A DNA stretch of 12,022 nt from Holdemanella sp. Lineage in GTDB: Bacteria > Bacillota_I > Bacilli_A > Erysipelotrichales > Erysipelotrichaceae. Below, piece by piece: positions 7,254 to 8,961 of this stretch. The notes under the pieces are model-generated. The model saw nothing but the letters and a program-made list of their open reading frames with translations. It was not told the DNA's origin and did no database searches. Where the stretch lies: contig JABUSD010000354.1 of NCBI GenBank assembly GCA_021442845.1, positions 1 to 12,022 of the forward strand, read 5' to 3'. Numbering within the stretch: the first letter of the stretch is position 1; the number at the start of each line of letters is the position of its first letter. Position numbers and translations under genes: made by a program.

Positions 7254-7283
7254 AAAAAAACGCCCTTAACACAAAAAGGACGT
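7254..7283 (-). terminator. Intrinsic terminator of the arg T-box
   Basis: On the minus strand ACGTCCTT (7276-7283) pairs with AAGGGCGT (7260-7267), 8 bp with one G-U, followed by seven T (7254-7260). Its 5' arm is also needed to pair with the T-box sequence in the antiterminator, so the two structures exclude each other. Confidence 0.88.
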
Positions 7284-7488
7284 AATGAACGCGGTACCAC
7301 CTAATTTCCACTCAATCTATTTGAGTGACACCTTTTTCTTAACGCGAAAGCACGATCATTGCCTCATCTATGATTTCGACAATGCAGTTCCAAGACACGT
7401 TCCAGGATTTATTTCTGATGTTTTTCACCACACAACATCTCTCTAAAAGAAAATCCGTCCTGTACTTCTTCTCTTCATAACCTTTATG
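7254..7488 (-). promoter_or_regulatory. T-box leader of the arg operon, probable Arg (CGU) specifier
   Basis: The minus strand carries the T-box core AGGTGGTACCGCG (7290-7302), whose UGGU should pair with the ACCA end of uncharged tRNA. Stem III is CACTCAA/TTGAGTG (7309-7315 with 7321-7327). Stem I upper helix is GGATTT/AAATCC (7451-7456 with 7405-7410). It is topped by GATGTT/AACATC (7417-7422 with 7434-7439), whose loop contains GTGGTG, with an AGAGAG bulge below. On the 3' side of the specifier loop the triplet at 7399-7397 reads CGU (Arg), preceded by GAA and followed by a purine. A competing terminator lies at 7254-7283. Uncharged tRNA-Arg should stabilise the antiterminator and allow readthrough into argG. 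Specifier assignment is by position and by operon function. Confidence 0.93.
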
Positions 7489-7494
7489 CATGCT

Positions 7495-7523
7495 ATTTTA
7501 CAATTAATATACGCTTTTTTCAA
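7495..7523 (-). promoter_or_regulatory. Sigma-A-type promoter of the arg operon
   Basis: TTGAAA (-35, 7518-7523) and TAAAAT (-10, 7495-7500) on the minus strand with a 17-bp spacer. Transcription would begin near 7488, just before T-box Stem I. Confidence 0.75.
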
Positions 7524-7590
7524 GGTATTTTCACAAATTATTTCAAATACATCCTGTCCAAATATGACTATAATTTATGAACAATATATA

Positions 7591-7618
7591 TTGATATTTA
7601 AAAATTTACTGATACAAT
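7591..7618 (+). promoter_or_regulatory. Sigma-A-type promoter of the structured leader / potD
   Basis: TTGATA (-35, 7591-7596), 16-bp spacer, TACAAT (-10, 7613-7618). Transcription would start near 7625. It diverges from the arg promoter; the 67 bp between the two -35 boxes are AT-rich and show no other feature I can name. Confidence 0.7.
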
Positions 7619-7624
7619 AATATC

Positions 7625-7843
7625 GTCACAAAAGTGATAGACCTCCCAAAAGGATAAGGCTACACGGACGGCCGGGTCAAATGCCGAAGACTTATCGAAG
7701 AGATAAGAACTCTGTTTGAAGGACAGGGAAGGTAATTTGATTACCTTATTGATTGAGTTAAAAGCTCAGTTTTATAAGCATATGCATCTACTTATGAAAT
7801 AATCAATAAGATGGGACTCACTTTTTGTGTTGTCATGTATTTC
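7625..7843 (+). ncRNA. Unassigned structured leader RNA (candidate riboswitch or small RNA)
   Basis: No protein is encoded here, but the transcript can fold extensively. An outer helix pairs CACAAAAGTGA (7627-7637) with TCACTTTTTGTG (7818-7829; one bulged U). Inside, domain A is closed by ACCTCCC (7641-7647) with GGGAAGGT (7726-7733; one bulged A). It holds a GC-rich core (7658-7688) with a CGG-ACGG-CCG hairpin and the hairpin CTTATC/GATAAG (7691-7707). Domain B is closed by a perfect 10-bp helix CTTATTGATT/AATCAATAAG (7745-7754 with 7801-7810), which contains two hairpins (7755-7767 and 7770-7799). An alternative hairpin GGTAAT/ATTACC (7731-7745) competes with both domains. A terminator and the potD gene follow. 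The helices are read from sequence; the riboswitch role is inference, and I do not recognise the family. Confidence 0.6.
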
Positions 7844-7845
7844 AG

Positions 7846-7880
7846 TGTCAGATGTCTATGCGTCTGACATTTTTATTTTA
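7846..7880 (+). terminator. Intrinsic terminator before the potD ribosome binding site
   Basis: TGTCAGATG (7846-7854) pairs with CGTCTGACA (7861-7869), 9 bp with one G-U and a 6-nt loop, followed by TTTTTATTTT. The run of T ends right at the AGGAGG (7880-7885) of potD. It therefore lies in the potD leader, either as an attenuator or as the end of a separate small RNA. Confidence 0.85.
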
Positions 7881-7893
7881 GGAGGAAATCGAA

Positions 7894-8961
7894 ATGAAGA
7901 AAATGTTAAAAGGAGTACTTGCGGTTTCAATGGTCGCATCATTAGCTGGATGTTCATCAAAGAGTGGTAAATATGAAGGACAGACACTAAAGCTTTACAA
8001 CTGGGGTGAATACATCGGGGAAAATGTAATCAATGAATTTGAAAAGAGAACTGGGGCTAAAGTATCCAATGATTTCTTTGATTCCAATGAACAGATGTAT
8101 GTAAAGGTATCGAATGGTGAAAAGTATGATTTATTAGTTCCTAGTGACTACATGATCCAAAGATTGATTGAAGAAGATTATCTTATGGAATTGGATAAAT
8201 CAAAAATCACATGTATGGATGATTTAAATCCTGAAATCTTAGATCTTGAATACGATCCAGGAAACAAATATTCCATTCCTTATTTCTATGGAACTGTTGG
8301 TATTGTCTATGATAAGACACAGGTGGATAAAAAGGATTTAGAAACAGAAGGTTGGGATATCTTCCTTGATACAAAATACAAAGGAAATATCTACCTATAC
8401 AACTCTGAAAGAGATTCCTTCATGATGGCTTTAAAAGCATTGGGTTATTCAATGAATACAGACAATGAACAGGAATTACAGGAAGCTTATGACTGGCTTG
8501 AAAAGTGTGTTACAACAATGGACCCTGAAATTGTTACAGATGAAATCATCGACAATATGGCACAGGCTCGTAAAGCATTTGGTTTAATGTATTCTGGTGA
8601 TGCAACATATGTCATTGCGGAAAATTCGGATATTGACTACTATATGCCTGAATCAGGAACAAACATCTGGACAGATGCGATGGTTATTCCAAAGAATGCG
8701 GAAAATCCTGAATTAGCGTATGAATTCATTAACTTTGTTGCTGAATATGATCAGGCTTATGATAACTCATCCTATGTTGGATATACATCACCTGTTAAAA
8801 AAGTAGCCGATGATTTAAGCAAAGGGGACTTCGATGGTATTGATGCTTATATCCCATCTCTATCCAATGATAAGAATGAAGTATTTAGATACAATGAAAA
8901 TGCCCGTAAGATTATCTCTAATCTATGGTCAAAGATTTTAATTGTTACAAGTAATAAGTAG
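7894..8961 (+). CDS. potD: PotD-like polyamine-binding lipoprotein of an ABC transporter
   Basis: Extracytoplasmic solute-binding protein related to PotD (spermidine/putrescine). Residues 1-20 form a lipoprotein signal peptide with lipobox LAGC; Cys20 would be lipidated and anchor it outside the membrane. Mature features align with E. coli PotD: LYNWGEYIG (34-42, ligand-stacking Trp37), YDLLVPSDYMI, YSIPYFYGTVGI, RDSFMMALKALGYSMNT (173-189, acidic ligand contacts Glu172/Asp174), MYSGDATYV, NIWTDAMVIPKNA with Trp259 and Asp261, and GYTSP with Tyr297. The 355 residues match the family. The start is ATG 7894 with AGGAGG 8 nt upstream. No PotA, PotB or PotC gene is adjacent; the gene stands alone between a divergent operon and a convergent helicase. 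Polyamine binding is inferred from the family; which polyamine is unknown. Confidence 0.9.
   Translation: MKKMLKGVLAVSMVASLAGCSSKSGKYEGQTLKLYNWGEYIGENVINEFEKRTGAKVSNDFFDSNEQMYVKVSNGEKYDLLVPSDYMIQRLIEEDYLMELDKSKITCMDDLNPEILDLEYDPGNKYSIPYFYGTVGIVYDKTQVDKKDLETEGWDIFLDTKYKGNIYLYNSERDSFMMALKALGYSMNTDNEQELQEAYDWLEKCVTTMDPEIVTDEIIDNMAQARKAFGLMYSGDATYVIAENSDIDYYMPESGTNIWTDAMVIPKNAENPELAYEFINFVAEYDQAYDNSSYVGYTSPVKKVADDLSKGDFDGIDAYIPSLSNDKNEVFRYNENARKIISNLWSKILIVTSNK

Follow-up and report, generated by a model that had tools for sequence, protein, structure and literature searches.

An RF02440-containing leader RNA of Firmicutes polyamine genes as a probable transcription-attenuating riboswitch

Non-coding DNA ahead of a potD-like gene in Holdemanella sp. 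appears to encode a folded RNA, raising the question of what this RNA is and whether it governs the gene that follows. Within the window (the whole stretch of DNA analysed, 12,022 nucleotides) the leader consists of the parts listed below. Comparison with its relatives makes it probable, in our judgement, that it is a cis-acting leader of a polyamine regulon and works as a transcription-attenuating OFF riboswitch, whose ligand is probably spermidine or a polyamine resembling it.

The potD leader and its match to RF02440

7591..7618, plus strand: promoter-like site TTGATA-16-TACAAT with TG ahead of the -10 (consensus scan)
7627..7637, plus strand: closing helix, 5' strand (partner 7818-7829)
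7639..7687, plus strand: module D1, RF02440 SpF59_sRNA/ldcC RNA (cmscan, 51.7 bits, E 4.2e-07)
7640-7643 and 7675-7678, plus strand: D1 helix P1, GACC with GGUC
7658-7661 and 7670-7673, plus strand: D1 helix P3, GGCU with GGCC
7665-7667 and 7684-7686, plus strand: possible D1 pseudoknot, CGG with CCG
7691..7728, plus strand: two further hairpins (by eye, from the fold)
7745..7810, plus strand: module D2, without an Rfam match (covariance model R2, 63.2 bits, E 7.5e-09 in its own genome)
7745-7752 and 7803-7810, plus strand: D2 helix P5
7755-7757 and 7765-7767, plus strand: D2 helix P6
7770-7778 and 7791-7799, plus strand: D2 helix P7
7784..7801, plus strand: antiterminator 5' arm, overlapping the P7 3' strand
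7818..7829, plus strand: closing helix, 3' strand (partner 7627-7637; 11 bp, one bulged U)
7838..7855, plus strand: antiterminator 3' arm, overlapping the terminator left arm
7844..7871, plus strand: intrinsic terminator with a 12-bp stem, a U-run coming after it
7881-7885, plus strand: Shine-Dalgarno GGAGG, with ATG at 7894
7894..8961, plus strand: PotD-like lipoprotein, a polyamine-type substrate-binding protein and the presumed regulated gene

An initial annotation, made from the sequence alone, had described a promoter, an 11-bp end-to-end helix, an intrinsic terminator and a potD ribosome binding site downstream of the leader, and all four are present at these positions. Promoter-like sites number 6 in 7400-8000 against 2.6 expected, making this one weak evidence on its own, and transcription likely starts near 7625; the terminator scan found 1 against 0.2 expected. 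The annotation's structured RNA at 7625-7880 is also borne out: it folds at -71.4 kcal/mol compared with -54.7 +/- 4.4 for shuffled sequences (z = -3.83, 0/200 as good). Its block of about 65% GC (7658-7688) counts 20 G or C in 31 positions, nearly all within the RF02440 match. The product of 7894-8961 scores above the cut-off of Pfam SBP_bac_8 and matches NCBIfam PRK09501.1 PotD with E 6e-54 and 183 bits, below the 582-bit cut-off.

The RNA had also been called unrecognised, with raiA RNA as a candidate, and here the annotation was wrong. Scanning against Rfam with cmscan gives a clear known-family match, the GC-rich central block corresponding to RF02440 over model positions 1-54 of 54 and exceeding the gathering cut-off of 37.2 bits. 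The window member is thus not a new family. Over 7560-7900 at E <= 5, the only other hits were two sub-threshold chance families; raiA and SAM-I-like aptamers gave no match at that threshold. With RF02440 alone lying above cut-off, raiA was excluded as the identity of the leader, as were the SAM, lysine and remaining Rfam classes. A conserved upstream open reading frame was rejected by eye, the D1 AUG not being kept (AAATG, AAAAG, AACG) and hairpin lengths shifting the frame.

The same scan bears on whether the leader could be an already known riboswitch with another ligand or scaffold, for example the spermidine-binding SAM-I variant or a lysine, glycine or T-box RNA. The published spermidine riboswitch likewise precedes ldcC, speE and speB, according to the parts of PMC10853860 available, but the scan returned none of these classes, and the one T-box of the window lies upstream on the minus strand adjoining argG, leaving this explanation hardly credible. 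That T-box leader (RF00230, 133 bits, 7273-7487 minus strand) adjoins argG and arginine biosynthesis genes.

Distribution, architecture and gene context

RF02440 matches were found in 18/145 relatives and in 31-33/244 sampled genomes of the order. Class- and phylum-wide samples contained few (4/395, 4/392 and 6/392; own genome included in all these counts), so the RNA is patchy. Searching named genome contigs with an exact D1 pattern yielded at least 120 stretches, and in the 120 loci found in this way conservation of the D1 pattern columns is by construction. Among the matches listed (80 titled) are Paenibacillus, Bacillus, Neobacillus, Acetobacterium, Lactococcus, Oscillospiraceae and Erysipelotrichaceae, together with records titled Spirochaetes and Synergistaceae. 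The locus set (n = 139) comprises 120 pattern-found loci, of at least 120 that exist, and 19 from whole genomes; 133 were long enough and 126 were aligned after removal of near-duplicates. L017 and L022, which are equal in length, are seemingly one contig.

In most of the 126 aligned relatives the RNA spans about 200 nt, compared with a 54-nt Rfam model that covers about a quarter of the leader. The alignment runs in the order D1 (P1-P3), hairpin P4, D2 and D3 (P10, P11), with D2 built from P5 (CUUAUUGA/UCAAUAAG) around P6 and P7 (UUUUAUAAGUU/AACUUGUGAAA), and with P8 and P9 often present. P5 (at least 6/8 pairs) is kept in 116/126 loci, P7 (8/11 pairs) in 110/126 and P10 (4/5 pairs) in 108/126. 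By eye, the window combines D1 with a short D2 and lacks D3, and the first of its hairpins at 7691-7728 carries a GAAGA-type loop that recurs at other loci whose D1 is of the GGCUACACGGACGGCC version.

The D2 model was built from 27 of 36 diverse loci, the window being a training row; nine were left out with D2 lacking or differing (L006, L012, L013, L017, L040, L061, L065, L085, L111), and by eye all nine keep D1. RNAalifold recovered the outer helix only, and a second model was built on a structure that we drew. Counted with that structure, and therefore leaning towards it, the 27 rows have 92% paired cells, and 6 pairs changed on both sides compared with 1.9 expected (1/500 shuffles as high). 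The annotation had proposed looking for covariation in homologues, and in an all-pairs test with substitutions re-placed on the tree this emerged for P2 alone, with 3 pairs at E <= 0.05, the other helices not reaching significance there. D2 and D3 barely covary because they are so conserved, and the D1 pseudoknot does not because its columns are invariant and, in 120 loci, were dictated by the search pattern. The inner helices other than P2 are thus predicted mainly from conservation.

D2 also occurs without D1, a further difference from RF02440. The D2 model gave 20 places, and the upstream DNA was read for 8 without an RF02440 match. Six loci carry a free D2-D3 leader at about 1501-1620 with no recognisable D1 (gone or degenerate), scoring 59-73 bits with the D2 model although none was a training row, and RF02440 had no match in them at E <= 1. 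By eye, these leaders precede a decarboxylase (L164, L148, L152), speD (L155, L162) or carboxynorspermidine synthase (L167). L164 and L148 belong to the window's own genus, and one genome of that genus (G003) encodes D1 plus D2 ahead of nspC (L002) and D2 alone ahead of a decarboxylase (L164). Other Rfam matches in the six loci were an opposite-strand L21 leader, which exceeded its cut-off in L148 but not in L164, and a single chance match in L152. No Rfam family matched the free-standing D2-D3 itself in these loci, and the module could be added to Rfam.

A downstream open reading frame could be called in 126/139 loci; the remaining 13 have 44 to 555 bases past the core. Polyamine genes, counted as speD, Orn/Lys/Arg decarboxylase, carboxynorspermidine synthase/nspC, potA and potD, lie within the first three open reading frames in sense orientation in 117/126 loci. 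As the first gene, potA accounts for 39 loci, speD for 36, carboxynorspermidine synthase for 34, Orn/Lys/Arg decarboxylases and C39-type lipoproteins for 5 each, potD and nspC for one each and other genes for 5. Genes were named by similarity to eight seeds drawn from the loci. Representatives exceeded NCBIfam cut-offs for nspC, speD, speE, agmatinase and potA, and the Pfam OKR_DC_1 cut-off for the decarboxylase; the representative synthase matched the carboxynorspermidine synthase model below cut-off. The 9/126 exceptions precede exported M28-type (L019 and L041 by Pfam, L062 and L101 by eye) or C39-type peptidases (L014 by Pfam; L011, L017, L018 and L022 by similarity to L014), which are not obvious polyamine genes. 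By eye, the same RNA stands ahead of exported peptidases in L166 and L171 too, the link to polyamines being unexplained.

Gene context, together with the switch anatomy described below, favours the RF02440 RNA being a cis leader rather than an independent sRNA gene. Rfam types SpF59 as 'Gene; sRNA', and a stand-alone, trans-acting sRNA whose position ahead of potD is incidental would agree with that label. The literature searched did not reveal where the name 'ldcC RNA' comes from; an ldcC motif may be listed, reportedly, in a survey published in NAR in 2017 that covered 224 candidate RNAs. Pneumococcal F59 is, we presume from its name, SpF59. In the available portions of three reports, F59, SN20 and srn235 are synonyms for an RNA between SP0915 and SP0916, given there as an sRNA with lengths from 82 to 327 nt (PMC3395615, PMC2887815, PMC12323649). 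Mutants of srn235 and SN20 have a listed lung fitness of 0.05 in the part of PMC3395615 available, an effect that might also stem from loss of a leader, and the corresponding part of a review places F59/srn235/SN20 under lung without a mechanism (PMC4387999). The sections of the literature searched gave no mechanism or ligand for the RF02440/F59 RNA. Against an incidental position stand the sense orientation before a polyamine gene in 117/126 loci and the pairing of the terminator arms with the P7 strand of the same RNA, and a terminated leader would yield identical transcripts. We therefore think a trans-acting sRNA improbable.

The window's genome has one RF02440 match. It also contains a second PotABCD-type operon (L145, 1808-6659), without an RF02440 match, encoding PotA (above the TIGR01187 cut-off), a permease and a permease fused to a binding protein (Pfam), and flanked by a helix-turn-helix/cupin regulator (Pfam). 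The single match and the separate transporter operon suggest that the window potD encodes an additional binding protein under RNA control of its own.

Terminator, antiterminator and closing helix

A terminator was detected downstream of the RNA in 78/121 classified loci, compared with 12/121 on the opposite strand, and was not found in 43/121. Its left arm tends to complement the P7 3' strand or its neighbour, and the antiterminator formed by this pairing and the terminator exclude one another. In the window, GCAUCU, AC and UGAAAUA (7784-7801) pair with AGAUGU, GU and UAUUUCA (7838-7855). The two folds differ by 1.1 kcal/mol (-71.4 with the terminator, -70.3 with the antiterminator), and a transcript that stops at 7856 adopts the antiterminator fold. 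The Rfam helix P1 is absent from the minimum-energy fold with the terminator, and single-sequence folding alone thus does not reproduce the family model.

Antiterminator arms pair better with their own partners than with permuted ones across 76 loci (z = -7.2, 0/20000 as good), compared with z = -1.8 for a control region. The potA group alone gives z = -6.9, and the test was not significant within the speD (z = -1.1) or carboxynorspermidine-synthase (z = +0.2) groups. With dinucleotide shuffles, 32/76 loci reach <= 5%, compared with 2/76 for the control region, and 44/76 do not beat the shuffles at that level; for the window, 2.2% of 500 shuffles were as good. A closer set of six comprised the window and its near relatives L019, L031, L035, L172 and the D1 variant L161; in it, 9/720 permutations of the antiterminator arms were as good as their own. 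This set was chosen by us, and L172 and L161 were obtained after the switch had been proposed. Seven loci had been named for it, of which L165, at a contig end, was lost because the search expression failed to capture it. L169 and L170, which nearly duplicate L031 and L035, were not entered, and neither were L171 (without D2) or L041, L055, L062 and L112 (same D1 version, longer D2). Coupling of a mutually exclusive terminator and antiterminator to the conserved domain is well supported by these data.

For the closing helix, the same six loci show compensatory variation among close relatives, and 2/720 permutations were as good as their own arms (exact). By shuffling, the helix reaches <= 5% in 32/124 loci and falls below z = -1.65 in 34/124, a level that a control segment located farther downstream reaches in 4. 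The carboxynorspermidine-synthase group contributes 21/30 at <= 5%, and such values are rare elsewhere (speD 3/34, potA 6/39, decarboxylase 0/5, C39 0/4). The window's own arms are matched by 6% of shuffles; L001, L031 and L035 are also strong, and L019 stands at 7%. An earlier test permuting loci gave z = -14.6 and -10.0, values that base composition can inflate, and the shuffles were relied on. The closing helix can accordingly be regarded as reasonably secure for the window's subtype and for the synthase loci, and as unproven in the other groups.

Two variations on this layout were noted by eye. In L011, past D3, an arm resembling that of the antiterminator shares bases with a hairpin that could hide the Shine-Dalgarno sequence, and some members may act on translation. 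In L012 and L013, which have a smaller D2, the P6 strand rather than P7 complements the terminator, a possible second switch layout.

A polyamine as candidate ligand

Gene context and switch anatomy make a polyamine-regulon attenuator well supported, its signal being proposed from the genes concerned. The computations support a course in which RNA polymerase makes D1 first and D2 next. Before the terminator right arm exists, the P7 3' strand could pair with the terminator left arm to form the antiterminator, leaving potD on; alternatively, it could stay in P7, which would free the terminator left arm, allow the terminator to form and turn potD off. We infer that the D1/D2 fold recognises a polyamine end product, with spermidine or a near relative of it as the best candidate, and that this stabilises P5/P7 and the closing helix, so that termination would occur when internal polyamine is sufficient and would shut down uptake or synthesis. 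The pneumococcal 'sRNA' would then be the terminated leader. A polyamine is the likeliest signal because uptake and two biosynthetic routes appear to meet in that product. The annotation's guess of a polyamine riboswitch thus gains from the gene context (139 loci), the antiterminator/terminator switch and, in the window's subtype, the closing helix, its ligand remaining inferred.

The attenuator might instead respond to a signal other than an RNA-bound polyamine, such as an RNA-binding protein, Mg2+ or a precursor (decarboxylated SAM, ornithine, lysine). Context and switch anatomy would suit any signal of polyamine metabolism, and the broad association of polyamines with RNAs is named as a difficulty in the available part of PMC10853860. 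Yet the gene sets span potABC uptake, speD/speE/agmatinase and the carboxynorspermidine route, whose common element would be the polyamine product, and conserved unpaired stretches of D1 and D2 resemble a binding pocket, with the D1 columns pattern-fixed in 120 loci. On balance we regard another signal as rather unlikely and prefer direct sensing of a spermidine-type polyamine.

One validated class of polyamine riboswitch, the SAM-I variant, appears in the accessible parts of the literature searched, and its authors expect further classes (PMC10853860, in the part available). That spermidine riboswitch (Salvail et al. 2023) is likewise described there as an OFF switch of polyamine genes using a terminator and an antiterminator. 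It has a different fold, with no SAM-I match in the window leader, and its published alignment, as given in that part, holds 13 representatives compared with at least 120 stretches here. The speF, odc1 and potE candidate motifs are also leaders of polyamine genes, the first two in alphaproteobacteria and potE in Veillonella, as far as the available sections of PMC11477304 and PMC8632094 describe them; none matched the window in the Rfam scan, although Rfam may not hold all three. Compared with RF02440 as a 54-nt sRNA, what is new here is the fuller architecture of about 200 nt with D2, the terminator/antiterminator switch with a closing helix in some loci, and the free D2-D3 module. We advance more tentatively, at slightly less than an even chance, that these RNAs form a widespread class of spermidine-type riboswitch with a non-SAM-I fold, in which D1 and D2-D3 have been gained and lost independently and may integrate two signals. 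A common leader over Firmicutes polyamine synthesis and uptake genes, with a testable switch, lends itself to immediate ligand assay, and a catalogued 'sRNA' would become a regulator of central metabolism.

One variant may bear on specificity. L161 (about 1380-1760) has CGGAAUGCC in D1 in place of CGGACGGCC, a change that might alter specificity, and precedes a lipoprotein that by eye resembles gamma-glutamyl-GABA hydrolases (PuuD-like).
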